Below are positions 5,186 to 29,341 of a stretch of 64,000 nucleotides of DNA, in pieces (position 1 is the first letter of the stretch; each line of letters starts with the position of its first letter). The notes beneath the pieces are model-generated. The model had not been told where the DNA came from and searched no databases. It worked only from the letters and a program-made list of their open reading frames with translations. Origin of the DNA: an uncultured Spartobacteria bacterium. GTDB taxonomy: Bacteria > Verrucomicrobiota > Verrucomicrobiia > Chthoniobacterales > Chthoniobacteraceae. Made by a program: the position numbers and the translations under genes. Location: assembly GCA_903901425.1 (NCBI GenBank), contig CAIURC010000012.1:1-64000 (forward strand). Reading direction: 5' to 3'.

Positions 5186-8100
5186 TCACCCCTTTTGTTC
5201 CTTGGATGCCGGGCGCCTGCAGGCACGGCGGAGCCTTTTCCGTTCCCGGAACCCGAGGAGGCCAAGGAGGAGGGATCCCGCCGCCCAAGAGCCGGGTTCC
5301 GGGATGGGCACCAGTTCGAGCCGTGACCCAAACTGGATCTGGCCAGCGGTTCCAAGAAACGTCTGGCCCGCATCGGAGAAGAACCGGATTTGAGTGAACT
5401 GAGCGGGGGAAAGTCCGGTGGAGGCGCCTGAGAATAGAAACCGGTCCTGAGCGGGGTCGCCGGTATCGGGAATGGGGGTGCGGTAGACGGATCCGGACCA
5501 GTTGTAGACGTCGAGAAAGGCGGAGCCGAGGGAGATGCTGGAAAATGTGAGGGTGTTGCCGGAACCGGAGCCGAAATCGAGTATGGAGTTGGCCTGAAGG
5601 GTCAGCGTGCCGACGGTTTCCGAGGCGTTGTTGAGACCTGCGGTGAACCCGAACCTGCCCGTGCCGGTAGCAGACCCGAGGGAAAGTGCAGCGGAGTCAG
5701 AGATGCGGTCGCGGGTTCCCGCAAGGAGCAGGGAGCCGCCCGAATGCACGGAGAGTGAGGGCGTATTGTTGACGGAGCCCTCGATCATCACATCGCCTCC
5801 GAGCACTTGCAGAAGGGAGCTGGGGCCTTGATTGCCGTTCAGAAAGGCAATGCCGGAGTCTTCCTTGGAAAGGGCCGCGATGTTGAGGTCGCTGCTAATC
5901 GCTGTCTGTCCGATGCCCGACAGAGTGAGTGTTGCCGAAGAGCCGGACACGGGTTGCAGGCTGGAGAGAGTTAGCCTTCCCGCATCAGACTGGATCCGGG
6001 AATCGGCGCTGAGCGTGACCGGACCGGCAAACGTGTTGGATCCGGAAAGGTTCCGGAGTGCGCCGGAACCTCCCGGCCCGGAGCCTGCGAGGGTGAGCGA
6101 TTCCAGCGGGATCTGGACGTCTTTGCTGAGGATCAGAGCTGCGCCGGGAGCCACCTCGGTGCCTCCCAGCGGGCTGCCGAGTGCTTGAGAGGAGGAAACC
6201 AGCAGGGAGCCCGAGGTAACGAGGGTCTGGCCGGTGAAACTGTTGTTTCCGCCGAGTTCAAGAGTGCCCGCACCGGTCTTCCGGAGGGGCGCGCCGCCAT
6301 TGAGTTCAGCAAGGTTTCGGAGAGAGCCTGAAAGGAACTGGAGTTGGGTGACGGGCGCGCTGGCAGAGCCGATGGGGGTTCCATTCAGGTCCAGGGAACC
6401 GCCGTCCAGGCTGAGGAGGCTGGTGGAAGTGCCTGAACCCGCGCCTCCGGCCCGGATGCCGGTGCCCTGGATGGAAACGGTGCCGCCGGAAATGAGGAGT
6501 GAACCGGAGGCGTTGCCTGACCCGGCAGGCTTCGAGGCGAGCAGAAGCCCGCCGGCCCCGACGGAGAGGGAGCCGCCGCCGATTTTGAGTGTGCCGGAGC
6601 CCGAGCCGGCGCCGGAGGCATTGGATCCGATGAGGACGGAGGTGGCGTCGATGGCGCCGCGGTCGAACTCGAGGAGACCTGTGCCTGAGCCGGTGCCGGC
6701 ACGGGGGCCTTCGCCGATTCTCAGGGCGCCGAGTAGTGCGTCAATGGAGCCGGCACTGCGTCCGGCGCCTTCGGTGAGCAGGACCTGGCCGGTGAGAGTA
6801 GTGGTGGTGTTGGGGTTGTCCTGGGTACCGATGGAAAAGTCGGTGCGGGCGTTGAGTCCGGCAGTGCCGCGGAGAAGGAGGGTGGGATTGGAGAGGCCGG
6901 CCTTGAATTGGAGGGTGCCGGAAGCTTTGTCGGTGCCGATGGCAAGACCGGTGGCGCCGACGAACAGGGAGTTGGACTGGCCAAGTTCGAGCGTGGCGGT
7001 TGTTCCTCCAGCGCCGTTCTGGCTGCGACCGACAAAGAGGCCCGATGCGGCTGTGATCTGGTTGGCCGTAGCCAGAGTCAGTTTGGAATTCAGAGTGAGG
7101 TTGGAGTTGCCCTCGCCCACCGCGAACCGGGCGACGGAAGCGGTCAGGCTGGCTAGGCCGCTGAAGTCGACCTGATGCGTTCCTGTCGCCCCTGCCGCGC
7201 TGGAAAACCCGTTCAACAGGAAGTTCGCGCTGGGGTGGCTCACCACCAGGTTGCCGCCCGGGGTCGGAAACTGGAGCCGGGATGTGGCGTTGCTGGACCC
7301 CATAAATGCGCTGAAGCCTGCGGGCCCGGAAACGGTGAGGGTGGATCCGTTGGCCAGCAGGATTTGTGCGTCCGCGCCGGCACTTGAAACCGCGGCCTGA
7401 AGGCCGCCCACGGTCTGGCTGGTTCCGCCGGTGTCGAGGGTCACGGTCCGTGCGCCGGTGGCTGAACTGCCGAGGATCACGGTGCCGTTGGGTGAGAATA
7501 CCTGGGCGTTTCCGGCCCGGAGTGTGCCGCCAACCACGGTGAAGTTTCCGAAGTTGGCGTTGGCGCGGTTGAGCGTCAGCGTGCCGAGGCCCGACTTGGT
7601 CAGATGCAGGAGCGAACCCAGCGAGTCCGCCAGCGGGAAATCAAAAGAAAGAGAAGTGTTGGAGCTGACATCCGACACGGAGCTGCCGCCGAGTACCAGC
7701 GTGGCTGCAGCGGCGTTGGAGTTGGTGAGAAATCCTGTGCCCGAAAGAAACGCGGGGCTGGCGAGGGTGAGTCCGTTGAGGTCGAGGGCGCTGCCGGTCG
7801 CCAGATTCACCCGGGTCGGAAGGGAGGTGGCGCTCGTGAGGCGGAGATTCCCCTCCGCGACCTGCACGCCGAATCCGGCGGAAAGGCTGGAGCCGAGAGT
7901 CAGCGTGCCGGGACCGGTTTTCAGGATGGCATCTCCGGGAGCAGAGCTGGTGAGGGCGCCGGAAAGCGCGCCTGTGACGGCCGGGCTGGAGACATGGATC
8001 GTCCGCGTGGTGTTCCCGAGTTGGACAGGGCCGCTCAGGGTGAGGCTGTTGCCGGCAGTAACGCCGCTGAAACTAAAGTTCCCGTTTACGGTGACAGGAT

Positions 8101-11100
8101 TGGCGATGGTCCGTGCGGTGCCATCGCTCAGAAGTGCGGTGCCGTCCTCGACGGTGAGCGTTCCGGTGCCGACGGGGCCTGCGGTCACAGTGCCTGTGGT
8201 GGAGGTAGAGTTTGCGCCCACGATGAGGCTGCCTGCGGAGAGCCTGAGTCCGGTTTGAAAGGTGCTGGCTCCGCGCAGGGTGAGGGATCCCGGGCCGGAC
8301 TTGGTGAGCATGCCTGCGGCGGCTGTGATGGGCGCCTGAATGTCGAGGCCGTGGGTGGAGATGCCGCTGGTGTGGATGACGGCGTCTGGGTGCGCGAACT
8401 GGAGGCCGGTGCGTGTGGCCTCCCCCGTGGAGAGGAGCGGGGTGGTGGCAAGGGAGTCGTTGGAGGCAGTAATGGCGTCCGCGGCGGTGAGGACGAGCGT
8501 GCTGACGGTGCCCGTGCCCGTGGGGGTGCCAAAGCTCAGCGTGGGGTTGGCGTTTCCGCCGGAGTTGGAGAACGAAAGCCTTGCGAGGCTCTGGGTGACA
8601 CTCGTGTTGTAGTTGGTGAGTGTCAGGGAGCCGCCGGCATGGATGGCGACCGAGCTGGAGGCGGCGATCTGTCCGGGATTAAGTGAGCCGAGGGTGACGG
8701 CGGTGTTTTCGATGGTCAGGTTGCCGGGGATGAGCACCTCGCCGGCATCGCCGTTCAGGGTGACGGTGCCGCCCAGAAAAAAGGTGGGGCCGGAGTATGT
8801 GTTGGAGCCGCCCACGGGATTGAGGGTGAGGTTGCCGCCGCCGCCTTTCACGAGGCCGGAGGAACCGCTGAGGACGGTGAGGAGGGAGAGGGGTTGCTGG
8901 TTCACCCAGATATAGAGCAGGCCGTTGTCGGGGCCGGAAAGGGTGGAGGTGGCGTCGGTGCCGGTGATGGAGGCGCCGGCGGCGCTGTTGGTGATCAAAC
9001 CCACATTCAGGGCGAGGGATGCGCCGCTGCCCAGTGTGATGGTTTGTGCGCTGCTGGCCGCGAGTCGGAGGGAGTTGACCGACCGGCTGGAGGCGAGTGT
9101 GCGAGTGGTGGTGGTGTCGGAGATGTTGTGGGTGGGCAGCACGGCGCCGCTGATGTCCGTGCCGTCAAATGCCGGGGCGGCGATCCCCTGCACGGTGGAG
9201 CCCATGACCATGACGCCGATGCCGTCCCGGTAGGTGGCGAACGAGTTTCCATCCGCAACGGCCCAGCCCCCGATGAGGTTGTTGGAAAGTCGGGCTTGAG
9301 AGAACGGGGTGCTGTCGAGGTTGCGGACAAAGATCCTGCTGGCGCGGCTGAGGCCCTGACCACCCAGAGTTTCGACGTTGTAAGCGTTGCCGCTCACCGA
9401 GCCGGCCCAGCCCTGAAAGGAGAGCATGGAGTGCGGGGTGCTCCGGACAAGGTCATTCACGGTGATGGTGACCGTGGAGCCCGCGTTGATCAGGGGAGTG
9501 GCTGCGAGGGTGTTGGACCCGCCGAGCACGGTGAGCGAACCCAGTTCCGTGGTGACATCCGCTGAGCCTGTGCCGACTGTCTGGATCAAGCTCCCCCGGA
9601 TCTGGACAGGCGCGGTGGCGGAAATCCGTTGCAGGTTTGGGGTTCCGGCCGGGTTCAACCCGTTGGAATCCAGAACCAGCGAGCCGCCAAACACGGAGAC
9701 ACTCGACGACTGGAGCAGGGAGCCGGAGTCCCGGAGTTGGAGGGCGCCTCCGCGGATGACGGTGGGTCCGATGTAAGTCTGTGGGGCGGTGAGGAGCGTG
9801 GTGTTGTTTCCGGCGCGGGTGAATCCGAGGTTGCCCCCGAGAACGCCCGCAAATGTGCCGCCGCCTGTGCTGGTGAAAACAGCGTAGGCGCCAGAGTTCC
9901 GGATGAACCCGCCGGCCCCTGGGAGCGGATTGGCCCCGGCGTTGTTCTGGAGGGAAGCCACGGCTTGGTCTCTGCCCATCAGATCGAGGACAGTGGAAGC
10001 GCCGTTGATCTGGAGGGCGGTTAGTGTGGGAACGGTGGGGCCGGGAACCACGGCCAGAGTGTTTTCAGAGCCCGAGTTGAGTTCGAGTGTGCCGCCGTTC
10101 AGCGTGGTGGCGCCGGTGTAAAGGGCGCGCTGGTTGAGTCGGAACGTCCCAGAACCGGACTTGTTCCAGCCGCCGGTACTGCCGATGCCGAGATACCCGT
10201 TGAGGGTTAGGGAGGCGTTGCCAAGGACATGGGTGTACCCGGTGTTTCCAGAGGCAGTGGTGAGTGAACCCAAGTCCAACGTTGCGCTGGTGTCGTCCAG
10301 CGCCAGCACCGCGGCGGCATCGCTCAAACGGAGTCCAAGCAGTCCGGAACCGCCTCCGAACCGCCCGAAGAATGCCGGGTCGAGTCCGGAGGCGATGTTC
10401 ACGGTGCCGGAAAGGGTGAGGCTGTTGGCCTGAGTGGCTGCGGAAAGGATGGCGGAGGTTGAGCCAACGCTGGCGTTGACGTTGTCGCCCCAGAGCGCCG
10501 GCGACGTTTCGGTTTCTGCCAGAGCCAGCGGCCGCCAGAAGCTTGTGCTGGAATCGCGGACCAGAAATCCGGTGCCCAGACCGGTGGGGCTGGCGTCTCC
10601 GAGGAGATCGGGCCGGATGGGGAGGGTTTTGGATCCGTTGAGTCCTGTGCCCTGGTTGGCCGGGAGGTTGGGGGTGGCAATGGAGAGCGTGGCGCGGCCC
10701 AAACCGGCTTCGGCGGAAATCCCCCGGAAGAGCCCGGCCGAGGAGTTGCCGGCGGTAGTCAGGGTTGCGATGGAAAGCGAGGTGGCCGCATGTGGAAGGA
10801 GCGTCACGGTGCCGGCCCCGTTCTGGAAGGTGAGGACGGAAGCCTGTTCTGAGACGGACCCCGCTGCGCCGTCTGTGAGCCGAAGTTCACCGCCCTGCAG
10901 GGTGAGCGAGCCTGTGTCCCGGAGACCGAGCCGGTTGTCCAGAGGGGATACGGTGTTGTCCAGAAGCAGTGTGCCGCCGCTGTTGATGACGAACGCGCCT
11001 GAAAGTGCGCCGGCTGAGGGTGTGGCCGGGGTGCCTTGGAACCATGCGCCGGCTCCGGAGAACGCGAGGGTGCCCGCATGGACCGAGACGGTGCCGGTGG

Positions 11101-14100
11101 ACGCTGTTGCGCTGGATTGCGGACTTGAAAGGGTCAGGGTGCCTGAGCCGACCTTGGCGAGCGAAACACCACCGGGGAGGGCGTCGTTGAACCGCCTGAA
11201 CTGGCCTGAAAAGACCGAGTCGGCGTTGTTGAATCCGATGCTGAGCGTGCCGGCGCCGCGGTCGGAAAACACATCGCCGGATCCGGCGAGCCCGCCAAGC
11301 GTCGTGGAGTAGCCGGCTAGATTCAGGATTGTGTTGGTACCCAGATCAAGCGTGGAAAAGCGGGAGCCCGCATTCTGCGAGCCGAGTGCGATGCCGCCCG
11401 CGGCGACGGTGAGTGGACCCGTGAAAATCTGGGGGGCGGAGAGTTGGAGCAGTCCGTCCCCGGCCTTCAGAAATCCAGCCGGTGAGCCGACAACGCCCTG
11501 GAGGTGGAAGGTCGGTACCAGCGGGGCAACTGACCGGCCATCGACGAGGATGGGATGGATGGTGAGCGTTTTCTGGCTGTCACCGAACTGGACACGGCCG
11601 GCGATTCCGGCGGAGGTGGCGGCGCCGAGTTGGGTGGTGAAGCTGGGATTGGAACTGGAGGCGGTGATGCCCGCGTTGCCGATGGTGAGAACGCCGGGGG
11701 CGCCAGGGCCGCTCTCGGGCAGGAGTCCGAAGGTGTTGACGAGCGGGGTGGCGAAGCCGCCGCCGGCATTGTCGAAAACGAGGCCCTCGAGGGTGTTGTC
11801 TCCGTGGAGATTGAGCGTGGCGTTTCCGATCAGCGAGACCACATTGGACGCCGCAATCTGGCCCGGCCGGTTCAGCATGGTGACGGTGGCCGGCCCGTAA
11901 ATCTGGAGGCCGCGCCGGGAATCCGCGGCGGCGGGGATGGTGACGCCGGGTCCGTCCAGCACGAGGGTGCCGAGGCTGACCACCGTGCCGCCTGTGTAGG
12001 AGTTGGCTGGGGACGCCCAGGTCATCACACTGGCACCCGTGTCGCCCGAAGATTTGACGACCCGGACGGAGCCGCCTGGGCCGTTGTCGGTGAGGTTTGC
12101 CGAGATCCGGACTGTGCGGTTCACGCCTCCGTAGTTGGCGTGGATGAGGTAGAAATCAGCGGGAACACCGGGCGCGCCTGCGGTGAGGGAACCGTTGGCG
12201 ATCTGGAGGGAGGTGTTGTTGGTGGACTGGGCAAACAGGATCCCGCCGGCCTCGGAACGGAGTGTAAATCCGCCGAGATCCAAAAGGCTGTTGGCGGTTG
12301 GGGAGGCGAATGTGAGCGTGTTGAGTACGGTGTTGCCGCCAAGAAGGGTGGTGCCTGAGACGGCCGACCGAATGTTTTCCGTGGATGCAGGGAAAGCGTT
12401 CAGTGGTGTAGAGCTGCTTCCCGCAAAGCCCTGCCCGTTGATGGGGCCAACGCCGAATCCGGGCTGATAGGAGGCGAATTCGCGGTCCACAAAGGCCCAG
12501 GGACCAATCAGGTTCTGCCGAAGCACGGGCGTTGAGCCTGCGGTGAGGGTGCCATTGATCCGGGTGAAAAATGTCCGGGCGCGGCTTCCGATGAGGCCTT
12601 TGCTGCCCTGGTCGTTGAAGCGGACCAGAGCGGTAGAACCTACCGGCCGGGACAAGTCGGCAAACGTGACGTCCAGAGAGTTGACGCCCGTGCCCGGGGT
12701 GGCGGCGAACACGTTGTTTTGTCCGGCCACCAGCGAAAGCGGCCCTGCATTTTCCCGTGAATCCATTTGGGGCCGGCCTACGAACTGGAGCGTTCCCGCC
12801 AGGAGCGAGACGGGAACCGAGTCTGGGAGGCGATCCTCGAACACGGTGGTGCCGTCGTTGCGGAAGAGGATCGTGGCGTGTTGGACGGAGACGGGACCGG
12901 TTCCCGAGATGCGCCCGGCATCCGTGAATGTGGTTGTCCCGCCGTTGAACAGGGAGCCGTCGGTGTGGGCGAGGGCGTTGGTGAACGTCAGGGCCCCGTC
13001 CCCGGTGCGTGCAAAGAACAGCGGGCCGGAGGAAGTTCCGGCGAAGGTCCGGGAAGCGGTGTCGTTGTTCAAAACCAGGGTTGCCGGCCCCGAACTGGAG
13101 GTGATGAGGCCGCCGGTGACAACGCTGTCAGAGAAGAGCCCTGAGGTGAACTGGATGTTCCCGTTCAAATCCAGAGTGCCCCCGTTCAGCGCAAGGTAGT
13201 TGTTGGCCGGAAGTGTGTTGGTGCCTCCTTGCAGACGGAGCGTGCCCTGGTTGAGGACATACTGCCCGGTCAACGTGTTCGCACTCATGCCAGACAGGAA
13301 CGGTATCGCGGACGCGGGCGTCGCAAGCGTGAGCGTGCCTGACCCGGCTTTCACCAGAGAAATGTTGCCCGCCCGGGTCCCGTTCCCACCATGGAGCAGG
13401 CTGGAGACCGTCAGATCGCCCAGAGTCCAGAAATTGAGGACGCCCTGTCCGGCCGGCTGGCTGAGAATGCCGCCGGAGATCGAAGATGCGCCGTTTCGCA
13501 CCAGGATGCCGCCGCTGGAGTTGGTAAGTGCGAGTCGGGTGCCGAGTCCGAGCTGTGCGCCGGACTCGAGTGTGAGCGAGTTGACGGTGAGATTGGCGGC
13601 GCCGGCACTGGTGAAGCCGGAGTTCAGGAGCAGATTGCTGTTGGATGAGGCGACATTGGGCGCCTCGTATTCGGAGGCTGCCAGAGGCCGGAGCCCGAAT
13701 GCACCGGTCTGGCCAGAGACCCCATCGGACGTTGCAAAGGAGACGCCGGAACCGGACTCTGTCCGGTCCACGAGGGCCCATGGCAGAATCCCCTTGTTGC
13801 GGCTGCCGACCGGGCCGGACTGGCCTGTGTAGGCAAACCCGGCGTCGGTTCCGGCAATCGAGGCAACACCGGGACCCGCGGTTGAGCCGAGTTGCGAACC
13901 TCGGAAAAGGACGGAGGCACCCGTGGCTCCGGCATTCGAGTACGCAGCGTTGTTGGCGGAGGCAAAGGCGGCTGCAGTCGCGCCCATGCTGAAGAGGAGC
14001 GCGGCGGGTTGCGTGGGATCGGCTTGGACCGTCACCACAGTGTAGCCGCGGGTGAACAGCGGGTTGGAGATGGTTTCCGAGGTCGGCCCTGAAGAACCGC

Positions 14101-17100
14101 CCCGGAGCAGGAAATGGCCGCCGCGGAATTGAACCGAGCTGGCACCGAGCCGGTTGGTGACAGTGGTTGAGGAGTTGTCCAGCTCCAGAGTTGCGCCTTG
14201 GAAAAGCTGGAATCCAGAAAAGGACGGCGCCACAGCCGGAGGCGGTGGCGGGGTGATCGTGAGCGCTCCCTCTCCGGAGAGAAGGAGGCGGCCGGCGTTG
14301 ATTTTGAACGAATCGCCGGCGAGGGGAAGGACGCTGACGTTTTCGATCTGGAGCGAACCCGAGCCGAATTTTTCAGCGCGGTTCCATGCAGGTGCGGCGC
14401 CTGCGGACAGGGGAGTGCCGGTGATCCGGATGTTGCCGGCGCCTGTAAAAAAGAGGGCGCGCGGGGTGGCGCTCCCCATCTGGAGGCCGCCGGAGAGGGT
14501 GAGAGTGCCGCTGGTGGATCCGATGGCTGCATCGCCGAGGGTGGTGATGGGACCCGACCAAGTGTTGTCGCCCGAGACGTTCTCGAGCTGGCCGCCAAAC
14601 TGGATGCCGCCCAGCGGGAGACTGGCGGTGCCCGAGTTGAGCACAAGCGGGTTGGCGACCGAAACGCCGCCGTCGAGTTGGACGGCCGCCTGCTGGCTGG
14701 ATGCGACCTGAACCGTGCCGGTTCCGAATGCGGCATTGTGGAGGGCACGGACGGCGCCGCCGTTCACGGTGAGTGTGCCGGACCACGTCGAATTGTCGGC
14801 GGCGAGGCTCAGGATCCCGGTGTCGTTTTTTGCGAGGCTGGCGCTGGAGTCGCCGGAGAACGCAAAGGGCGAATTGAGCCGGAGCACGCTTCCGGAGACG
14901 ACCTCGATTGCGCGGGTATTGGCGGTGTTGGCGAGGACAAACGAGCGGGCGGTCTCGAAGCTCGAGGTGGCGCGGAAAGCGGACGTGCCGGCCGAGGGCG
15001 CCAAAAGGACTGGGTTGGCGGCGTTGCCGAGGGCGGCATCGGAATCGGCGGCAAGAACGCCGCGTGTGATTTGAATGGGGCCGTTGAACGTGTTGAGGGG
15101 GTTCGCAAGGACGAGCGTGCCTGCGCCCGTCTTGACCAGAGAGCTTGCGCCAGAAAGCCGGCCAGTGAGGGTGAGTCCCTGGACCACGTTTGAGGCGGAT
15201 GCGTTTGCGACAGAGAACGTGGGCGAAGCTGCAAGCGCAATATTGTCGGAGAGCCTGAGCCCGAATCCGTTGTTGTTGACCAGAGTCAGACCGTTGGCCA
15301 GAGCCGGTGTGGAGAGGGAAGCTGGTGCAAGAGTCTTGTTGGCTGCGGTTGCGAAATACGAGGTGGCGCCTGCCCGGTCCACGGTGAGGGTGAGCAGCGC
15401 ATCTGATGGCGCAGCCCAGGAGAGGTTCCCCAGCGGAAGGATCTGGGGTGCACCTGTGCCGTCCCCGTCGTGCAGCAGGGAGAAGGTCGGGGCCGATGTG
15501 AGGCCCGAAATCTGGACCGGAACTGCGGGGTTGAGCTGGGTGAAATTGAACGCCGAAAGATTGCCTGGCCCGGACACCCGGAGGGATCCCGGACCGGAGC
15601 CGAATCCGAGCGCGGTGATCGACTCGATACCGGAGAGTGTTCCCCTGAGCGCCAGACTGACCGAGGGGTTGGGCAGAAGAATCTGGGTGCCGGTGGTCTG
15701 CAGGTTTTGGAACGTCACGGTTCCAGTCAGTTGCAGCGTGGCTGGCGACAGGCCGGTGGATTCGATGAGCGGGTCCGCTGCGAACACCACCGGATTGAGA
15801 AGGACGCGGCTGGCATTGTTCACCAGGAGCCGGGTGTTTGGGGCAAACGCCGCGGTCCCTGTGCCGAGCGGACCGGACAACAGGCCGGCACTGAGCGAGG
15901 TGGCGGTGTCGCGGCCGAGGACAAGACCGCCCTCAAGCACTTGCACGCCGTTCGTAAAGGTGTTTGCGCCGGAAAGCAGAAGCAGGCCTGTGCCAGTCTT
16001 GGTCAGGCTGGAGTTGGATGCGTTTGGGGCGGATGCGAGCGTGGAGGCCAGATGGAGGGAGGGCGCGAACTCGTTGAATACGGCGCCCGAGGCCTGGAGA
16101 CTCACGGGAGCCGTGAACACCGGGGTGGCGCCGTTGGGGAGCAGGAGGGTGCCGCCGGAGACGGTTGCAACAAAGAGCGGGTTTTGGGAGACGGCGCTCA
16201 GAGGGGCGACGCCGGTGAGTGTGAGCGTGGTGCCGGATCCCAGAGAGACGGTTGGGCTGGCGTCCCCGCCCCGGTTGTTGAACTGGAGCGAGTCCAGGGA
16301 ATGCGCGGTGTTTGCCGCCAGATTGAGCACGGCCCGTCCATTGAGGAGCACGGCGGATCCTGGGGCAATGGCGTTGGACGCCTGGACGTTCACGGTGGCT
16401 GCCGTGAAGTTTGCGCCCCCGTTGAGGGTGAGAAGGCCTGCAGGCAGGACGGAGGCGCCGGCGATGGCGGGCGAAAGCTGGAGGGTGCCTTGGTTCACCA
16501 CGGTCCCGCCTGAGAACGAGTTGGCGGCGGTCAGGACCAGGGTGTTGGCGCCGGATTTGATCAGTTGGACCCGGTTTCCCGAGCCATTGTCAGCAATCTG
16601 CGCGTGTACGGTGAGGGTGCTTTGGTTCCCGTAAACGACGAGTTCCCTGAGGCCGGAGGATTCGGCCCCGCCTGCGGTGAGCACGCCCGGGACAGCGGGT
16701 GAACCGAGGCTAGATGGGGCGTTGTTATCGCTTCTGAGGAGGCCGCCGAGCTCCAGGTTGAGCGTGTCGCCTGCGTTGGCGAACGCCACATCGTTCTGGA
16801 ACGCTCCAGCCAGACGGAGTACGGCGGCGCTGGTGGTCCCGGAGGGAAGCGTGGTGACAGAGGGTGCCGTGGCAGGGATCTGCGTGAGTCTGCCCGGTCC
16901 AAACACGGCATCGTACGGCACATAACCGCCCTGACCCACGGTTCCAATGCCCGTGGCCGGATTGAACGCAGCGTAATCGGTGGAGTTGACGATTGCCCAA
17001 GCCCCGAGGAACCCGTTCTGCGTCGTGGGCGGGTTCTGGAGTAGAATCCGGGAGCTGTTTCCGGCCAGGCCGACGTTGGATCCGAGGATGTTGAGGGTGG

Positions 17101-20100
17101 TTCCCGGAGACCGGTCGAGTCGGGCGAGGGAGAGTTCGGTGGACCAGAAGGCACCGCCGCCGGCTGCTGCGACAAGAGTGTTGGCGCCTTCGGCCAGAGT
17201 GACGGGGCCGAGGGTTTCGCGGGAGGCGCTGTTGAACCGCCCATTGAGCCGGAGATCAGCGCCCCTGAGCGTGACCGGGGCCGTATCGGGCAGGCGGTTG
17301 TCGTTCTGGGTGAAAAGTCCGGCGTTGTTCTGGAGCTGGAGCCGGCCGTATTGGATCGAAATGGAAGAGGTCCGGAGCAGCGCGGCATCGTCCCTGAGGT
17401 CCAGCGAACCGCCGAGGACGGTGGTGCTGCCGCCGTACGAATGGGGGCTTTCAAACGTGGTGGTGTTCTGGCCCGGTGTCCGGACAAAATGCACGGCATC
17501 TCCGGAGATGGACCCGGCGAAAACAGCCTCGGCGTTTCCTGCGAGGAGCGTGCCGGTTCCGGTGGAACTGGTGATCCGGCCGGCGGTTCCTGGCAGAAGT
17601 CCGGGCGAGGAAAGTCCCGCGAATTGTTGGAGGGTGCCGTTGAGATCGAGCGTGGCGCCCGCGTCTAGAACGAGTCCGGAGGTGCCGGGGAAGAGCGTGG
17701 AGTTCCCGGCACCGAGGCGGAGGGTGCCGTCGAGGATCGATGTCGGGGCGTTGAGGAACTGTTTTCCCGAGAGGAGGAGGGTGCCTGGGAGCGCCTTGGA
17801 GAGGGAGTTTCCGGCGACCATGGAACCCGCGATCTCAAGAGTGGTTTGTGCGCCGACTTGGAAAATCCCATGGGCGCCGAGGTGGAGTTGGGGGGCGGTG
17901 ATACGGTGGGCGGTTCCTCCAGACGCAAGCACGGCCCCTGAGGCGAGCGTGAGCACCGGGGTATCGCCCGTCACCGAAACCTCGAGCGGGGTCGAGGCTG
18001 TCAGGGCCAGGGCGTTGACCGTGCGCCCGTTGGAAAACTGCAGGTTCGAGAACTGCGTGCCCAGCTTGAGCGTGTCTGTCCGGAGCGCAGAATTCACGTC
18101 CGTGAGAGACGCGTAGGCGTTGAATGGGACCACACCCAGCGCGGGGTCGTATCCTGCGAAATCTGTTTCCCCAATCAGAATGCGGGGCGAAATTCCTTGG
18201 GCGGAGGTTGGGGGCGTTGAGCCAAGCAAAACGCGGGCTCTGGAGCCGAGTTCGGCAATTCCAGAGAGATCCAGAAGTGAACCGGCAGTTGGAAAATCTG
18301 AGGAGGTGAACGAGAGGGCGCCGGAATCTGGGAGGAGGATTCTGCCGAGTCCTGTGCCGACCCGGAGATGGCCGAGGGCGATGGGGGTTTCGGGTGCGGG
18401 ATTGAGCGCGGAGAATGTGCCGCCTTGGAGGGTTAGGGCGCGGCCTTCGAGCCGGTTGGGGGCTGTGGCATCCAGTTGAAAAATGCCGCCCGAGTTCAGG
18501 ACAAGCCCGGTGCCGGGTGCGGAGGAGAGAGACCGGAGACCGCCCTCGATGCCAGTGAGGAGAACGGTGCCGCGGTTGACAGTGAGGGAGCCTGAAAATG
18601 TGTTGTCGCCCGAGAGGGTGAGGCGGCCAGAGCCGGAGAATACGAGATTGCCCGGGGCCGTGCCGCCGTTCTGGATACTACCGGAGATCCGCGTGTCTCC
18701 CGGTCCTGCGAGGGTCAAGGTCCGGGCGCTGTTGTTTTCCGAGAGGTTGACTGCGACGGGAGCGGAGAGGAGGAGGGAGGCGGGTTGCGCGATCTGATTG
18801 AACAGGAGCCGGTTGCCGCCTGAGTTGGTGAGGGTGGCAGCCAGTTCGATGCTCTGGCTGCCTTCAAACACGGCCGGGGAACCCGAAAGCTGCACGGGGG
18901 TCAGGATGGCGCTTGCACCGAGCAGAGGCGTGGTGGCGGACACGGTGCCGCCTGCCAGCGTGAACAGGGAGGACGCACCGAGCGGGTTCGAGCCCGGATC
19001 CTTGCTGAGGATGAGCGCACCCTGAGAGAGGGTTGTGGGGCCAGTGTAGGTGCTGGCGGGCCCGGACAGCGTGAGGGAAGCTGCCACCGCCACATCCAGC
19101 CCGATCCGTCCCCCGGGATTCGGGTTCTCGGTGATGGAACCGTTCCAGACCGTGGTTCCGTACCCTCGGACAAACAGGGTCTGGGGGGCAGCGGGCGCGG
19201 TGGACGACTCCAGATTTTGGAAGTTGCCTTGGATGGTGAGCGCGGCCCCGTTCTCCAGATTGTTGCTGAGGATCCAGGAGTTTGGGCCCGCAGTTTTGCG
19301 GAGCGCAACGCCGTCGGTGCCGGCGAGGGTGATTGGGTTCTGCCCGGCAAACACTGCGGTGGAGCCGTTGCCCTCGACCACGGCCCGGACAGTGAGCGGG
19401 CCGCCGTAGCCGAAGATGCTTCCGTTGTTCAGGCTGAGGATGGGGCTGGAGCCGATGCCCGCCTCGGTCAGTCCGAGCGTTCCCGAAAACACCCGGATTG
19501 GTCCGGTGAACTGGTTGGGGGACTGCGGATTCAGGATCCAGGTGCCGCCCTCGGTTTTGTTAATTCCGAGCCGGGCCGGGTTGGTTGCGGCGGAACTGTC
19601 GGTGAGCAGGGACCGGACGGTGTTGTTGTCGACGTTCGAGCCGCGCAGTTCCAAGAAGAGTGTCCGGAGCGAAGCGTCGCGCTGTGTGGTGTTGGAGAAC
19701 GCACCGGCCAGTTCCAGAGGTCCGCTGCCCGAGGCGTCGATGCGCCATGTCCGGTCCGCTGTCCCGAGGTTCCCCTCCAGACTCAAGGGCCTGGTCGCCG
19801 ATTCGCCGGGTCCCACGTAAAGCAGCGCATTCAGGTCCCCGGAGTTCCTTGAAAGAACCAAGGAACCGCCGCTGGCCCCGAGCGAACTGGCGGTTGTGCC
19901 GGAGGCGTTGCCGATGGAACTCACCACCAGCGTGCCGTCCTGAATCGTGGTGTTTCCGGTGTACCGGTTTGCGCCGCCCAAAGTCAGAACGCCGGCCCCG
20001 TTTTTGGTGATCCCCGAGGAAACGGAGCCGTCACTGAGGATGCCGGAAAGAATTCCAGCCGTTACCATGGTGCCGGTGTTGAAGTTGGGCTGGACGGTGA

Positions 20101-23100
20101 GGGTCCGAGTGGCGGCGTTGAGCGCGAGATCGTTGAGCAATTCCGTCTCGCCCAGTGCGGTTCCTGAGCCGAGCACGAGGGCGCCCGGGTTGAAAGTGGG
20201 AGTGCCCCAGGAGAGACCGGCCGAGCCGAGTCGGACCCGAAGTCTGTCCGGGGTGGCTGCGGCAAAGCCGGAAGAGCCGGAGGGGATTTGAACCTGTCCG
20301 GGAGCGGTGCCGGGTTCCCGAGAAAACAAACCGGCAGATTCAAGAACGCCACCCTGCAGCGAAAGCAGGCTGTTGGTTGGAAGCCCCACGCCGTCGAGGG
20401 CGCGGAGTGCGCCCCCGGAAACCGTGGTGGTTCCGGAGTAGGTGTTGGGGGTGGCGGGTTGAAGGATCCAGAGCCCGGAATCGGCCTTGGTCAGGCCGGT
20501 GGTGGAACCGTCCAGCGGATTGTTGGTGAGGAGCGGTCGGAACACGTTGTCTCCGGCAGACGAGCCGCCCAGCGTCAGGGTTTTTGAGCCCGGCGTGAGG
20601 AAAACGAGCGGGCTGGTGTTGGCAAACACCAGACTGGCATGGTTCGCTCCCGAGCCCGCCGTCGCTGATTCGTTCCCAAATGTTCCGGACGACTGGATTC
20701 CCGCGTTGCCTGCGAGAGAAAAGAGGCGGTTCGTCGAAACAGAGGGCGTTTGCGAGGTTTGATAGATGCCGCCGCCCGTGGCTCCAGCCCCCGTGTACAG
20801 AAGCGTGCCGTTGTTGAACACCAGGTTTTCCGGGGCGCTGCTCGAGGCTCCGATGCCGGACGGTGCGCCGCCATCGGCAAGACGGGTCACCGCAAGAGTG
20901 CCGCCGTTGAGCACCGTTCCACCGGTGTAGCTTTGCATGCCCACCACGGCCTGAGTGCCCGTCCCGTTTTTTACGATGTGCAGCGACTGGGTTCCGTCCG
21001 CGAGTGTTCCGCCGAAAGTGCTGCTGGCTGTCGTCACGCCCGGTTGCCCGATCCAGAGCGCCGCACCGGACTCCGGATGAAGGTTCGTCACGGTCCCGGC
21101 TCCGGAGAGGGTTCCCGTGACCACGGTGGGAAGGCTGGGGCCACCCGGGAAAACGGGGAGGCGGGAGCCGGCGCCGTTGAGATCGAGCACGGCATTCTGA
21201 CGGACCACGGTGGTGTTGGCCGGGTTGGAGATCGCGCCCAGAGTGGCTGCCGCACCGGACAGGCGCAGGGTGCCTTGGTTCACGGTGGTGTTGCCGGTGT
21301 AGGCGTTTGGGCCGGACAACACCAGCAGACCATCGCCCGTTTTTGTGAGGCTGGATCCGCCTGAACCGATGGGTGAAGAAACCGTCAGTGCCTGCGCCGG
21401 GCTGCTCCCGTTGGTGGTGATCACCAGCTCCTGCCCCGCAGTACCCACAGAAAAAGGGCCGGTGATGGAGGCTGGACCAAATGAGTTGTCGAAAAGGAGG
21501 CCCCCGGGGCTCGAAGAAAAACTCAGCGCGCCCCCCAGAGTCATGGTCTGCGCGCCTGCCAGTTTGAGCGATTGCACGGTCTGCGCCGCCGTGGTGACGG
21601 TGTCCCCCGTCAAAAGGGAATGCGCCGCCGCACCGCTGCCCGGCAGGCCGGGCGTGTACCCGGTAAAGCCAACGATCCGCGTGCCGTCCAGTGCCGCCCA
21701 GTCCGTTCCCCGGAAAGTGGCGTAGCCTGGCAACACTCCCGAATTGGGCGGAGTCGAGAACTGGATGGAACCCGAGCCGGGCTGGAAATCGAGGGTGGCA
21801 CCAGGGGAACGAGCCGCGAGGCCGAGGAAGTTCAGCGTGCCGGTGCCATCGGCGATGCGGAGCACACCGTGGCCAGCCAGTGCAGAGAGCCTGCCGAACG
21901 ACGCAGAGTCCGCCGTTCCTGAGGTCCATTCCAGGATCCCGCCGGCGAGGCCCCGGCGCGTGACCGGATCCGAATCGAAAATCACCGGAGTGGTTGGGCC
22001 CACCACCGATCCGGACCGGATTCTGAGCGTGCCTGCGGTGAGGGTGAGTGTTCCGGCAAAATTCGGAGCCGGGGTGAATGAAAGGGACTCGGCATCTGGC
22101 ACTGCGCCCACAGTTTTTGAGGCCCCAGTGGCACTGGCGAGGGTGACGGAGTTGGGGCCGGAAATGGAACGGATGAACCAGCCCTCCTCTGCAGGCAGGC
22201 TTGTACTGACCACGCGCTGGCCTGGGACGAGTCCAGCAGTGCTTGGAAGCGTCAGCACCGGATTGGCCGTGCCGGTGCTGGCAGCTGTGGTGGACTGAAT
22301 CCCCTCCATGCCGGATGCCCGGTGGACTTCGGCGGCGCCTGCAGGCGCCAGCGCCGTACGGTTCTGGCTGAGCACCAGAGTCTTGCCGTCCACAATCTGC
22401 GAGATGAGCGTTCCTGCCGGGATCCCAGGCCCGGAGATGGGCTGTCCCACAACCAAGCCCGCAGTCCCATCTTCCACAGGGAGTGTGACCAGCGTGGAGT
22501 CCGTTTCGCCAGCGGCGTCCAAAGAAATTGTCGTCGGCGCGCCCATTCCGGATGCCGGCTCCGCCAGTTCCCAAGTCCCGGTTCCAAACTTGACCAGGCT
22601 CGTGAGGGACCCGGAGTTGGGAATCAGCCCGGCGATCTGGTTCGCCACGGAGCCAAGGGCATCCCCGCCCAGGTGCAGGGTTTTTGTGCCGGGATTGGAA
22701 GCGGCGAAGTTGGAGGAGATCCGGAGTGGCCCGGGACTGGAGCCGGACTGCTGTGCGAGCAGGTAGGCGTTGGAGCCCGAGAGGTCGAGGGTGTTCCGGT
22801 TCCAGTCCTCGCCTTCGCCGGTTCCTGAGGCGCCCAGGAATGCGAGCGCACCGCCGTTCAACTGAATCCGGCTTGAGCCGAAGATTTCTCCCGTCCGGAC
22901 CTCGGTGGTGCCATCGTTCAGAATGAGCCTGCCCGAGAGCGTGGATGGCGCCCCAGAAACGGCTTGGGAAAACGTCAGGGTTCCGCTTCCCGTCTTTTGA
23001 AAGAGATGCAAGCTGCCGGTGGCTTGGATCTTGCCAGTGACCAGCGTGTCGCCCGCAGACTGCAGGGTAAACGTGCGGGGTTCGGATCTGTCCCGCGTCC

Positions 23101-24613
23101 CCCAGAGGTCTCCAGACAGACTGAGCAGACCCGAGCCCGAGTTTTGGAGGGTGGAAAACCCGTTCTGGCCGCCGCCGAGGATACCGTTCTGGCCGGAAAA
23201 CGCCGCCGACCATCCGTTCCGCGAGTTGAACGTGAACGTCGAGTTGGCAAAAAAGGAGAGCTGTCCAAACTGCACGGTCTGGTTCTGGAGCAGGGCGCCG
23301 ATCCCGAGCGGTCCCTCCAGAGAGTGGTCCAAAAAAAGCGCGCCAGCGGTGCTGTTCCGGACAAACAGGTTTTTCGCCGCAAACGCGTTGGGATTGTCGG
23401 TCCGGACCTCCAGAGTGCCTCCCAGAAAATCAATGGCCTGCGGACCGCTGTTTATCCCAAGTACGCTTCCGGTGGATACGCGGACGGTGCCGGAATCGAT
23501 CCGGATGCTTTGCGCGAAATTGTTTGCCGGATTCTGCAGCCAAAGCGTCGAAGAAACTAGGTTGCCCGACTTGATGAACCGGTCCGCGGCCGACTCAGAG
23601 CCCGTGACTTGTCCTGAAACCACCCAGTTGCCGTTTCCCATCAGCACCTGAGCCCCGCCCGAGCCAAGAAAGAGCGGGCCGCTCACCTGCGTGGTGCCGT
23701 ACACCGAGATGGCCCGGGTCTCCACGCTCCCAGACGAGGAAAGCGCGATCCCGCCAGAAAGGGTGTTGTATCCGAGGCTCACCAGCGCCCCGCTGCCGTT
23801 GGCAGCACCCGGGCCGCGGCCGGAGGCCGTGATGGAGCGGGTAAAGTTCATGCCGGGGCCAGAGACCGAGCTGAGGTTGCCGGCCAGAAGCAGTGCGCCC
23901 CCTGAAAACCCCGGGTTGCCCGAGTTCGCCACGCCAGAGATCGAAACCGGGCTCAGTTCGGGTCCAATCTGGCCCGGGTTTTCCACAACAAGCGTTCCGG
24001 ACTGGATGAGCAGCGGGCCGGTTGCAGAAAATTCGGTCAGACGCAGCGTGCCGTCTCCAGTCTTGGTCAGACCCTGAGAGCCAGTCACCGGACTTTGGAG
24101 GATGGCTTGGTTTGTTCCAAACCCGGTGTTTTGGACTGCAATGAGCGGAGGGAGCGCGGTGTCTGTGGCAGTCAGCGAAAGTGACCCCCCGGTGAGCGTG
24201 GTGCTGGGACTCCGGAAAGTCAGGCCGCCGGCTGAGAGTGGCCCTTCCAGCGCCGCCACCCCGGAGGTCCCGGCAAAAACTGCAGTGTCCCCGGGAGTCC
24301 AGGCTGCCAATTCTTCCCCGTTCCACCAGGCAGGGGTGGTTGAATTCCAGACGCCGGAACCCCCTGTGCCGGAAGGGTTTCCGGCATGGAAACCGTTGGG
24401 AGCAAACTCCACGGAAGCCGCTTTTGCCTTGCTGGCTCCCACGCAAAACGCCCCCGCGACCGTCACTGCCGAGGAGAAAAAATGGAGGGACGACCGGATT
24501 TTGCGCTTCCGGCTAGGTTTCCGGCCGGGGCGCAGCGAAAGCGCGGCCCCCAGGGCCCGGCGGATCCCGCTCGGGTTCTGGAAAATTGGACGCGATTTCT
24601 TTTTTTCTGGCAT
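5186..24613 (-). CDS. Giant autotransporter-type beta-strand repeat protein with PEP-CTERM anchor
   Basis: One uninterrupted frame for about 6,475 residues. I start it at the ATG at 24613 (MPEKKKSRP); a TTG 30 bases upstream is possible but less likely. Residues 1-67 form an extended signal region: basic stretches, then a hydrophobic segment and KAKAA as a likely cleavage site. The body is made of passenger-associated transport repeats of the type LTKTGDGTLxL...TxxNxGTLxL, dozens of copies, expected to form a very long beta-helix. Several larger modules contain a G(P/A/G)WAxV...FAxY signature (near residues 960, 2140, 2540, 3610, 4045, 5120). The C-terminus, PIPEPGSW, then a hydrophobic helix and RERKRLRR, is a PEP-CTERM exosortase signal with a rather long tail. 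There is no C-terminal beta-barrel, so secretion by autotransport is unlikely. No exosortase gene is in the window. Confidence 0.9.
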   Translation of the reverse strand: MPEKKKSRPIFQNPSGIRRALGAALSLRPGRKPSRKRKIRSSLHFFSSAVTVAGAFCVGASKAKAASVEFAPNGFHAGNPSGTGGSGVWNSTTPAWWNGEELAAWTPGDTAVFAGTSGVAALEGPLSAGGLTFRSPSTTLTGGSLSLTATDTALPPLIAVQNTGFGTNQAILQSPVTGSQGLTKTGDGTLRLTEFSATGPLLIQSGTLVVENPGQIGPELSPVSISGVANSGNPGFSGGALLLAGNLSSVSGPGMNFTRSITASGRGPGAANGSGALVSLGYNTLSGGIALSSSGSVETRAISVYGTTQVSGPLFLGSGGAQVLMGNGNWVVSGQVTGSESAADRFIKSGNLVSSTLWLQNPANNFAQSIRIDSGTVRVSTGSVLGINSGPQAIDFLGGTLEVRTDNPNAFAAKNLFVRNSTAGALFLDHSLEGPLGIGALLQNQTVQFGQLSFFANSTFTFNSRNGWSAAFSGQNGILGGGQNGFSTLQNSGSGLLSLSGDLWGTRDRSEPRTFTLQSAGDTLVTGKIQATGSLHLFQKTGSGTLTFSQAVSGAPSTLSGRLILNDGTTEVRTGEIFGSSRIQLNGGALAFLGASGTGEGEDWNRNTLDLSGSNAYLLAQQSGSSPGPLRISSNFAASNPGTKTLHLGGDALGSVANQIAGLIPNSGSLTSLVKFGTGTWELAEPASGMGAPTTISLDAAGETDSTLVTLPVEDGTAGLVVGQPISGPGIPAGTLISQIVDGKTLVLSQNRTALAPAGAAEVHRASGMEGIQSTTAASTGTANPVLTLPSTAGLVPGQRVVSTSLPAEEGWFIRSISGPNSVTLASATGASKTVGAVPDAESLSFTPAPNFAGTLTLTAGTLRIRSGSVVGPTTPVIFDSDPVTRRGLAGGILEWTSGTADSASFGRLSALAGHGVLRIADGTGTLNFLGLAARSPGATLDFQPGSGSIQFSTPPNSGVLPGYATFRGTDWAALDGTRIVGFTGYTPGLPGSGAAAHSLLTGDTVTTAAQTVQSLKLAGAQTMTLGGALSFSSSPGGLLFDNSFGPASITGPFSVGTAGQELVITTNGSSPAQALTVSSPIGSGGSSLTKTGDGLLVLSGPNAYTGNTTVNQGTLRLSGAAATLGAISNPANTTVVRQNAVLDLNGAGSRLPVFPGGPSLPTVVTGTLSGAGTVTNLHPESGAALWIGQPGVTTASSTFGGTLADGTQSLHIVKNGTGTQAVVGMQSYTGGTVLNGGTLAVTRLADGGAPSGIGASSSAPENLVFNNGTLLYTGAGATGGGIYQTSQTPSVSTNRLFSLAGNAGIQSSGTFGNESATAGSGANHASLVFANTSPLVFLTPGSKTLTLGGSSAGDNVFRPLLTNNPLDGSTTGLTKADSGLWILQPATPNTYSGTTTVSGGALRALDGVGLPTNSLLSLQGGVLESAGLFSREPGTAPGQVQIPSGSSGFAAATPDRLRVRLGSAGLSWGTPTFNPGALVLGSGTALGETELLNDLALNAATRTLTVQPNFNTGTMVTAGILSGILSDGSVSSGITKNGAGVLTLGGANRYTGNTTIQDGTLVVSSIGNASGTTASSLGASGGSLVLSRNSGDLNALLYVGPGESATRPLSLEGNLGTADRTWRIDASGSGPLELAGAFSNTTQRDASLRTLFLELRGSNVDNNTVRSLLTDSSAATNPARLGINKTEGGTWILNPQSPNQFTGPIRVFSGTLGLTEAGIGSSPILSLNNGSIFGYGGPLTVRAVVEGNGSTAVFAGQNPITLAGTDGVALRKTAGPNSWILSNNLENGAALTIQGNFQNLESSTAPAAPQTLFVRGYGTTVWNGSITENPNPGGRIGLDVAVAASLTLSGPASTYTGPTTLSQGALILSKDPGSNPLGASSLFTLAGGTVSATTPLLGASAILTPVQLSGSPAVFEGSQSIELAATLTNSGGNRLLFNQIAQPASLLLSAPVAVNLSENNSARTLTLAGPGDTRISGSIQNGGTAPGNLVFSGSGRLTLSGDNTFSGSLTVNRGTVLLTGIEGGLRSLSSAPGTGLVLNSGGIFQLDATAPNRLEGRALTLQGGTFSALNPAPETPIALGHLRVGTGLGRILLPDSGALSFTSSDFPTAGSLLDLSGIAELGSRARVLLGSTPPTSAQGISPRILIGETDFAGYDPALGVVPFNAYASLTDVNSALRTDTLKLGTQFSNLQFSNGRTVNALALTASTPLEVSVTGDTPVLTLASGAVLASGGTAHRITAPQLHLGAHGIFQVGAQTTLEIAGSMVAGNSLSKALPGTLLLSGKQFLNAPTSILDGTLRLGAGNSTLFPGTSGLVLDAGATLDLNGTLQQFAGLSSPGLLPGTAGRITSSTGTGTLLAGNAEAVFAGSISGDAVHFVRTPGQNTTTFESPHSYGGSTTVLGGSLDLRDDAALLRTSSISIQYGRLQLQNNAGLFTQNDNRLPDTAPVTLRGADLRLNGRFNSASRETLGPVTLAEGANTLVAAAGGGAFWSTELSLARLDRSPGTTLNILGSNVGLAGNSSRILLQNPPTTQNGFLGAWAIVNSTDYAAFNPATGIGTVGQGGYVPYDAVFGPGRLTQIPATAPSVTTLPSGTTSAAVLRLAGAFQNDVAFANAGDTLNLELGGLLRSDNNAPSSLGSPAVPGVLTAGGAESSGLRELVVYGNQSTLTVHAQIADNGSGNRVQLIKSGANTLVLTAANSFSGGTVVNQGTLQLSPAIAGASVLPAGLLTLNGGANFTAATVNVQASNAIAPGSAVLLNGRAVLNLAANTAHSLDSLQFNNRGGDASPTVSLGSGTTLTLTGVAPLSAVSQNPLFVATVSGGTLLLPNGATPVFTAPVSLQASGAVFNEFAPSLHLASTLASAPNASNSSLTKTGTGLLLLSGANTFTNGVQVLEGGLVLGRDTATSLSAGLLSGPLGTGTAAFAPNTRLLVNNASRVLLNPVVFAADPLIESTGLSPATLQLTGTVTFQNLQTTGTQILLPNPSVSLALRGTLSGIESITALGFGSGPGSLRVSGPGNLSAFNFTQLNPAVPVQISGLTSAPTFSLLHDGDGTGAPQILPLGNLSWAAPSDALLTLTVDRAGATSYFATAANKTLAPASLSTPALANGLTLVNNNGFGLRLSDNIALAASPTFSVANASASNVVQGLTLTGRLSGASSLVKTGAGTLVLANPLNTFNGPIQITRGVLAADSDAALGNAANPVLLAPSAGTSAFRATSSFETARSFVLANTANTRAIEVVSGSVLRLNSPFAFSGDSSASLAKNDTGILSLAADNSTWSGTLTVNGGAVRALHNAAFGTGTVQVASSQQAAVQLDGGVSVANPLVLNSGTASLPLGGIQFGGQLENVSGDNTWSGPITTLGDAAIGSTSGTLTLSGGLQMGSATPRALFFTGAGNIRITGTPLSAGAAPAWNRAEKFGSGSLQIENVSVLPLAGDSFKINAGRLLLSGEGALTITPPPPPAVAPSFSGFQLFQGATLELDNSSTTVTNRLGASSVQFRGGHFLLRGGSSGPTSETISNPLFTRGYTVVTVQADPTQPAALLFSMGATAAAFASANNAAYSNAGATGASVLFRGSQLGSTAGPGVASIAGTDAGFAYTGQSGPVGSRNKGILPWALVDRTESGSGVSFATSDGVSGQTGAFGLRPLAASEYEAPNVASSNSNLLLNSGFTSAGAANLTVNSLTLESGAQLGLGTRLALTNSSGGILVRNGASSISGGILSQPAGQGVLNFWTLGDLTVSSLLHGGNGTRAGNISLVKAGSGTLTLATPASAIPFLSGMSANTLTGQYVLNQGTLRLQGGTNTLPANNYLALNGGTLDLNGNIQFTSGLFSDSVVTGGLITSSSGPATLVLNNDTASRTFAGTSSGPLFFARTGDGALTFTNALAHTDGSLFNGGTTTFTDAGRISGTGPVSVQHATILFRNDGTTVFEDRLPDSVPVSLLAGTLQFVGRPQMDSRENAGPLSLVAGQNNVFAATPGTGVNSLDVTFADLSRPVGSTALVRFNDQGSKGLIGSRARTFFTRINGTLTAGSTPVLRQNLIGPWAFVDREFASYQPGFGVGPINGQGFAGSSSTPLNAFPASTENIRSAVSGTTLLGGNTVLNTLTFASPTANSLLDLGGFTLRSEAGGILFAQSTNNTSLQIANGSLTAGAPGVPADFYLIHANYGGVNRTVRISANLTDNGPGGSVRVVKSSGDTGASVMTWASPANSYTGGTVVSLGTLVLDGPGVTIPAAADSRRGLQIYGPATVTMLNRPGQIAASNVVSLIGNATLNLHGDNTLEGLVFDNAGGGFATPLVNTFGLLPESGPGAPGVLTIGNAGITASSSNPSFTTQLGAATSAGIAGRVQFGDSQKTLTIHPILVDGRSVAPLVPTFHLQGVVGSPAGFLKAGDGLLQLSAPQIFTGPLTVAAGGIALGSQNAGSRFSTLDLGTNTILNLAGYSTTLGGLAGSGDVFSDRGAGTLSIGFNNADSVFSGQFRRFNDALPGGVSLAKVGSGTLTLSSPQSSATASTGTVSVHAGTLAFSGAGAWFQGTPATPSAGALSGAFVINSGGTLLLDNTVSPLDNRLGLRDTGSLTLQGGELRLTDGAAGSVSEQASVLTFQNGAGTVTLLPHAATSLSIATLTTAGNSSAGLFRGISAEAGLGRATLSIATPNLPANQGTGLNGSKTLPIRPDLLGDASPTGLGTGFLVRDSSTSFWRPLALAETETSPALWGDNVNASVGSTSAILSAATQANSLTLSGTVNIASGLDPAFFGRFGGGSGLLGLRLSDAAAVLALDDTSATLDLGSLTTASGNTGYTHVLGNASLTLNGYLGIGSTGGWNKSGSGTFRLNQRALYTGATTLNGGTLELNSGSENTLAVVPGPTVPTLTALQINGASTVLDLMGRDQAVASLQNNAGANPLPGAGGFIRNSGAYAVFTSTGGGTFAGVLGGNLGFTRAGNNTTLLTAPQTYIGPTVIRGGALQLRDSGSLLQSSSVSVFGGSLVLDSNGLNPAGTPNLQRISATAPVQIRGSLIQTVGTGSADVTTELGSLTVLGGSNTLAATPLINAGSTVTITVNDLVRSTPHSMLSFQGWAGSVSGNAYNVETLGGQGLSRASRIFVRNLDSTPFSQARLSNNLIGGWAVADGNSFATYRDGIGVMVMGSTVQGIAAPAFDGTDISGAVLPTHNISDTTTTRTLASSRSVNSLRLAASSAQTITLGSGASLALNVGLITNSAAGASITGTDATSTLSGPDNGLLYIWVNQQPLSLLTVLSGSSGLVKGGGGNLTLNPVGGSNTYSGPTFFLGGTVTLNGDAGEVLIPGNLTIENTAVTLGSLNPGQIAASSSVAIHAGGSLTLTNYNTSVTQSLARLSFSNSGGNANPTLSFGTPTGTGTVSTLVLTAADAITASNDSLATTPLLSTGEATRTGLQFAHPDAVIHTSGISTHGLDIQAPITAAAGMLTKSGPGSLTLRGASTFQTGLRLSAGSLIVGANSTSTTGTVTAGPVGTGTLTVEDGTALLSDGTARTIANPVTVNGNFSFSGVTAGNSLTLSGPVQLGNTTRTIHVSSPAVTGALSGALTSSAPGDAILKTGPGTLTLGSSLSAGFGVQVAEGNLRLTSATSLPTRVNLATGSALDLNGLTLASPAFLSGTGFLTNSNAAAATLVLGGSSVSDVSSNTSLSFDFPLADSLGSLLHLTKSGLGTLTLNRANANFGNFTVVGGTLRAGNAQVFSPNGTVILGSSATGARTVTLDTGGTSQTVGGLQAAVSSAGADAQILLANGSTLTVSGPAGFSAFMGSSNATSRLQFPTPGGNLVVSHPSANFLLNGFSSAAGATGTHQVDFSGLASLTASVARFAVGEGNSNLTLNSKLTLATANQITAASGLFVGRSQNGAGGTTATLELGQSNSLFVGATGLAIGTDKASGTLQFKAGLSNPTLLLRGTAGLNARTDFSIGTQDNPNTTTTLTGQVLLTEGAGRSAGSIDALLGALRIGEGPRAGTGSGTGLLEFDRGAIDATSVLIGSNASGAGSGSGTLKIGGGSLSVGAGGLLLASKPAGSGNASGSLLISGGTVSIQGTGIRAGGAGSGTSTSLLSLDGGSLDLNGTPIGSASAPVTQLQFLSGSLRNLAELNGGAPLRKTGAGTLELGGNNSFTGQTLVTSGSLLVSSSQALGSPLGGTEVAPGAALILSKDVQIPLESLTLAGSGPGGSGALRNLSGSNTFAGPVTLSADSRIQSDAGRLTLSSLQPVSGSSATLTLSGIGQTAISSDLNIAALSKEDSGIAFLNGNQGPSSLLQVLGGDVMIEGSVNNTPSLSVHSGGSLLLAGTRDRISDSAALSLGSATGTGRFGFTAGLNNASETVGTLTLQANSILDFGSGSGNTLTFSSISLGSAFLDVYNWSGSVYRTPIPDTGDPAQDRFLFSGASTGLSPAQFTQIRFFSDAGQTFLGTAGQIQFGSRLELVPIPEPGSWAAGSLLLGLLGFRERKRLRRACRRPASKEQKG

Positions 24614-24779
24614 GGAGTAAGCTAAGTAATGAAATTTGGGCAAAAAATGCAGGCATGCCCAGCGTGAGGATGACTCAAGGAAGGACCCCAGTACGAGGTT
24701 TTTCTTAGAACCCCACGCGCGCCCTGTTAAATGCCAGTTTGCAGGGTTGCGCGCCGGCTTCGAGTCGCCCGGGTTTCGT

Positions 24780-26627: not shown

Positions 26628-26630
26628 GGT

Positions 26631-27852: not shown

Positions 27853-28380
27853 ATGCCCCCAGCATTTCCCCAGTCTTCCGGGCATCCCCTCGGGGTGTCC
27901 CGCGGTTTTCATCTGGTCCATCGGACCCGACGTTGTGCCGGCATCCTGCTCATGGAAGCCATGGTGGCTGCGGCCATCCTCGGGTTGGTGGCCGTGGGCG
28001 CCACACACGCCCTTCTGACGGCCAACCGACTCGCGGCTTCTTCTCGGGTGTGGACATCCGCACGCGCCGTGGTCCAGCGGAACCTGGACACGGCCCTCAC
28101 CATCACGTTCACCCAGACATCGGTCCCACCGATTCTGGCGTTCACTTCCGGGGCCGGTGAAGTGTGGGATGACGATGGCGGCTCAGACAACACGGTTCAG
28201 ATTGCGGTTCAGGATGGCCCCGGCCTGGTGGTCGCGTCCGGCGTCCTGACCCGGACAGTGACTGCGGTGGCGAATCCCGACAACGCCGACATCCGGCGGG
28301 TCACCTTCTGGTTGGACTATCAGTACCGGGGCCGGCCGGTCTCCCTTTCGATGACCACCATGCGGAGCGTGGATGACTAA
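27853..28380 (+). CDS. Prepilin-like protein (PilV/GspI-like minor pseudopilin)
   Basis: Encodes 175 residues. A long leader of about 30 residues ends in a class III signal, CAG then ILLMEAMVAAAILGLV, with Glu at position +5 of the mature helix as in substrates of prepilin peptidase. The rest is a small beta-rich domain without a recognised family match. The ATG at 27853 is preceded by AAGGA, although the spacing is short. The downstream prepilin-like gene overlaps its end by 8 bases, so the genes form an operon. A minor pseudopilin of a type II secretion or type IV pilus system is the likely role. The window has no assembly ATPase, platform protein or prepilin peptidase. Confidence 0.75.
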   Translation: MPPAFPQSSGHPLGVSRGFHLVHRTRRCAGILLMEAMVAAAILGLVAVGATHALLTANRLAASSRVWTSARAVVQRNLDTALTITFTQTSVPPILAFTSGAGEVWDDDGGSDNTVQIAVQDGPGLVVASGVLTRTVTAVANPDNADIRRVTFWLDYQYRGRPVSLSMTTMRSVDD

Positions 28381-29266: not shown

Positions 29267-29341
29267 GCGCCGCCCATGGTCACCGCCCAAATCCCAGAGC
29301 CTGCTGCCGGCCGCATTAAACGCCGTTGCTCCTCCGTCCCA

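Follow-up and report, generated by a model that had tools for sequence, protein, structure and literature searches.

We describe, from an uncultured Spartobacteria bacterium, a real and very long exported protein of the Verrucomicrobiota, here termed the giant, which combines a passenger of the autotransporter type with a PEP-CTERM tail and lacks a translocator barrel. Exosortase-dependent sorting is the best explanation for this architecture, and we put at roughly 70% the probability that the giant is sorted by an exosortase after Sec export, as a surface or matrix β-helix protein; its cleavage, acceptor, route across the outer membrane and function we infer. Exported giants that resemble the outer portion of an autotransporter and bear an exosortase tail are a kind already known in the phylum. 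More interesting than the giant itself are close relatives that lack an exosortase and encode similar giants ending in a barrel, and it is the tracking of exosortase status by anchor type within the family that deserves follow-up.

A single open frame and its surroundings

The window, that is, the whole stretch of DNA analysed, comprises 64,000 nucleotides (positions 1 to 64,000 of contig CAIURC010000012.1), and its relevant features are collected in Table 1. A sequence-only reading had described an uninterrupted 19.4-kb frame of 6,475 residues with autotransporter-type strand repeats, an extended signal region, a PEP-CTERM tail and no C-terminal barrel; its coordinates and length were right, the strand, which it left unstated, is the minus strand, and each of these features is borne out by the evidence below.

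Opening with an ATG at 24613 and closing with a stop at 5186, the frame is a single series of 6,475 codons; the alternative start listed first, a TTG at 24643, would yield 6,485 residues. From the giant's own codon-position composition about 0.0116 stops per codon are expected, so that an unconstrained frame would stay open over the full length with a probability of about 10^-33. When the gene was divided into twelve 500-codon blocks, GC at the third codon position exceeded that at the other two in every block, and the frame is therefore no join of pieces. The product contains two cysteines and is rich in glycine, leucine, serine, alanine and threonine.

Table 1. Coordinates of the giant, its parts and the genes downstream (positions in the window)
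Feature	Position	Strand	Evidence or remark
6,475-residue exported giant, PATR β-helix passenger and PEP-CTERM tail, without barrel	5186..24613	minus	
Residues 1-65, N-terminal export signal including a long basic N-region	24419..24613	minus	read from sequence and hydropathy
Passenger module (residues 2217-2721) with homology to the barrel-ended G060 giant	16451..17965	minus	28% over 567 columns, E 8e-25
Passenger module (residues 3464-4063) with homology to the barrel-ended G060 giant	12425..14224	minus	31% over 656 columns, E 7e-33
Conserved C-terminal β domain with PEP-CTERM, about 185 residues	5213..5758	minus	also found in paralogues and, across the order, in 47 of 117 genomes
PEP-CTERM motif, short hydrophobic helix and basic cluster (PIPEPGSWAAGSLLLGLLGFRERKRLRR)	5234..5305	minus	TIGR02595, Pfam, paralogue alignment
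699-residue repeat protein, start ..PERLEPRIAPA	3055..5154	minus	31 bp after the giant
705-residue paralogue of the preceding protein, start ..PESLESRIAPA	890..3007	minus	52% identical; 47 bp gap

Neither of the two downstream LExRIAPA proteins matches a Pfam or NCBIfam model, and scans for promoters and terminators downstream of the giant gave results at chance level; the 699-residue protein is a possible co-transcribed partner. Upstream, an asparagine-synthase-like protein and a family 2 glycosyltransferase are encoded on the minus strand (24780-27578), the former having as its best NCBIfam match the XrtA/PEP-CTERM system amidotransferase, at 494.9 bits and thus below the cut-off of 816.9. 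Beyond them, on the plus strand (27853-31156), lie prepilin-like genes whose N-methylation signals are weak, as is their similarity to Verru_Chthon cassette protein C and HpsA.

N-terminal signal, passenger repeats and predicted fold

As read from sequence and hydropathy, the N-terminal signal peptide expected of an exosortase substrate is present in extended form: the basic N-region takes up about 44 residues and is followed by FFSSAVTVAGAFCVGAS..KAKA, with the hydrophobic core at residue 45. Sister giants carry a similarly long N-region ahead of the core, with weak conservation of sequence. Profile searches of the body revealed 18 PATR (PF12951) and 24 TIGR02601 β-strand repeat stretches, the passenger repeats characteristic of a Type Va autotransporter; the translocator barrel by which such a protein should end (PF03797) found no match in the giant.

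Modelled by AlphaFold2 with four aligned sequences (mean pLDDT 71), the final 354 residues are predicted to form a β-helix to residue 318 followed by a single helix at 319-343, the latter at low confidence. Foldseek returned no match to this model at E ≤ 0.001, so the fold assignment rests on a second look with a structural aligner, in which β-helix proteins ranked first and autotransporter passengers were among the best matches (pertactin, Z 14.5; EspC, Z 13.7). At the sequence level, the C-terminal 4,936 residues matched no solved structure at E 0.01.

A putative PEP-CTERM tail of divergent type

The conserved C-terminal domain ends in ELVPIPEPGSWAAGSLLLGLLGFRERKRLRR, after which there is a short further tail. 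Scored by itself, the tail falls below the curated cut-offs of both Pfam PEP-CTERM (14.3 bits against 20.7) and TIGR02595 (13.7 bits against 16). The PEP motif, hydrophobic helix and basic cluster are nonetheless all present, and the tail is assigned through its homology to those of three paralogues in the same genome (C127, C186 and C208), each of which passes the Pfam cut-off and to which the giant's tail is homologous over its full length; across the whole aligned domain, identities to the three are 55%, 52% and 35%. Its peculiarities are a weakly hydrophobic helix (17-residue Kyte-Doolittle maximum of about 1.0), GSW in the place of STW, and 17-18 residues beyond the first basic cluster. 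A PEPG ending of the same domain also occurs in another Verrucomicrobiales genome (L067, L068), and a wider contig search with the tail domain retrieved three loci only, all in one Verrucomicrobiales genome. Given the homology to paralogue tails above the cut-off and this second occurrence of PEPG, we take the tail to be most plausibly a genuine PEP-CTERM, divergent and of a local type.

Exosortases and further giants in the same genome

The sequence-only reading had proposed looking in the genome for an exosortase gene and for other PEP-CTERM proteins, and both were found. A genome-wide search detected two exosortases above the Pfam cut-off of 25.7 bits: one of 528 residues, fused to an EpsI-like C-terminal part (C34; 155.5 bits), and one of 314 residues, followed by a separate EpsI gene (C88; 141.4 bits). 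CSGVRS and downstream Arg and His residues can be read in both, and the exosortase genes and the giant lie on different contigs. Several other PEP-CTERM proteins are encoded, among them PATR proteins with frames of 9,272 codons (C186), 4,643 codons (C208) and at least 1,482 codons (C127, a lower bound, as the frame runs into the contig end). A further PATR protein, its start missing, ends in a classical autotransporter barrel (C170; 145.9 bits), the only PF03797 match of the genome; both kinds of C-terminus are thus encoded for one cell.

Just upstream of the C208 gene lies a 127-bp copy, 92% identical, of that giant's PEP-CTERM tail (L037, G000:C208:36574-36699, inside a 71-codon frame), perhaps left over from a gene that was recombined or duplicated. 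A protein upstream of the same giant, resembling an HlyD adaptor on reading of its sequence, was considered as a transport partner and rejected, since its neighbours resemble a VTC/CotH-type cluster.

Tail domain and exosortase among relatives

Of 117 genomes sampled from the order, 47 carry the tail domain and 88 an exosortase. Exosortases occur in 45 of the 47 tail-bearing and 43 of the 70 tail-less genomes (Fisher p 1.7e-5, related genomes being treated as independent); in G004 and G097 the tail was matched but no exosortase detected. The association is repeated within the family, all 40 genomes of which were searched: 15 of 15 tail-bearing genomes have an exosortase, against 11 of 25 tail-less ones (Fisher p 3e-4, kinship ignored), and none of the 14 family genomes lacking an exosortase has the tail domain.

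One sister genus, g5, contributes 12 of these 14 genomes. Ten of the twelve encode autotransporter barrels, several of which belong to PATR frames thousands of codons long, up to 20,385 codons. Taking giants of the family as frames of 4,000 codons or more (sizes in relatives being open-frame lengths, not gene models), all ten that end in a barrel, every one from a single genus, are in exosortase-less genomes, and all six that end in the tail domain are in exosortase-bearing genomes, one of the six (G131) containing an internal TGA. Mutual exclusion of barrel-ended giants and exosortases is not general, since outside the family G084 (5,390 codons) and G055 (4,490 codons) combine an exosortase with a barrel-ended giant.

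Passenger modules shared with a barrel-ended giant

The 20,385-codon PATR frame with an autotransporter barrel end occupies about 25.4-86 kb of G060:C2 (L080, L081, L086), and both passenger modules listed in Table 1 match its middle. Part of this similarity may stem from repeats, because both proteins are repeat-rich; the alignments reach well past the 30-residue PATR unit. We tentatively propose, at somewhat short of even odds, that giants of the family keep their passenger and swap their sorting device according to exosortase status, bearing a PEP-CTERM where an exosortase is present and a barrel where it is absent. If so, exosortase sorting and type V self-transport would be functionally interchangeable for the same cargo. 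We found no description of such an exchange in open-access papers.

Proposed pathway and its alternatives

On the favoured reading, exosortase sorting after export, the N-terminal signal would take the giant through Sec, and about 6,400 residues would then form an extended right-handed β-helix of the autotransporter-passenger type. The PEP-CTERM helix would retain the C-terminus in the inner membrane until one or the other exosortase cleaved at the PEP motif or close to it and passed the protein to a surface or exopolysaccharide acceptor, a hand-over that would leave no need for a barrel of its own. Its role would probably be in adhesion or matrix structure. The sequence-only reading held that anchoring must go through an exosortase: the exosortases of the genome, the co-distribution with the tail domain and the barrel-ended giants of exosortase-less relatives all favour such anchoring and support the reading in part, though not the word "must".

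The shortfall against both cut-offs, the GSW in place of STW and the additional C-terminal residues would also suit a degenerate PEP-CTERM that exosortases do not recognise, leaving the protein in the inner membrane or periplasm or releasing it. We consider this unlikely: the tail is homologous over its full length to tails that pass, its PEPG recurs in the other Verrucomicrobiales genome, and PEP, helix and basic cluster are all in place. Alternatively, since passengers of the autotransporter type normally require an outer-membrane translocator, the giant might leave through a two-partner system or another secretion pathway, its PEP-CTERM helix acting only as a retention anchor. The genome does encode at least one autotransporter barrel, so that its outer membrane is able to take such proteins, but no translocator gene adjoins the giant in the window or its counterparts in C186 and C208, and we regard this route as quite improbable. 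That the frame itself arose by misassembly or belongs to a decayed gene could be entertained for an assembly fragmented into 224 contigs; the uniform third-position GC, the absence of a stop across 19.4 kb and comparable giants in independent genomes (9,072 and 5,247 codons in G023, for example) make it scarcely credible.

Comparison with known systems

The route by which PEP-CTERM proteins pass the outer membrane has been called unclear (PMC12188702). To this question, and to that of their final location, passengers common to exosortase-sorted and barrel-carrying giants of sister genera bring a natural experiment, with similar cargo and two exit devices. The giant resembles Type Va autotransporters in its PATR and TIGR02601 passenger repeats and β-helix-like fold, and differs from them in ending, without a translocator barrel, in a membrane helix and basic tail. 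In its size it is like the huge proteins of more than 5,000 residues reported from the PVC superphylum (PMC11573180; PMC12057145); the portions of those reports drawn on here do not describe a PATR/PEP-CTERM architecture. In Akkermansia muciniphila, of the same phylum, PEP-CTERM proteins were predicted and detected by mass spectrometry alongside autotransporters, so that both sorting types are found in one genome, as here; giants or an exchange of C-termini do not figure in the part of that account on which we rely (PMC4960237). The closest comparison is with the PEP-CTERM/exosortase (EpsH) system proposed by Haft et al. in 2006, who came upon it first in Verrucomicrobium spinosum with its 65 PEP-CTERM proteins (PMC1569441). 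From that system the giant differs in its great length and in a predicted tail scoring under the curated cut-offs, and it shares with it the N-terminal signal, the tail of PEP motif, helix and basic cluster, the exosortases encoded in the genome, and an outer membrane.
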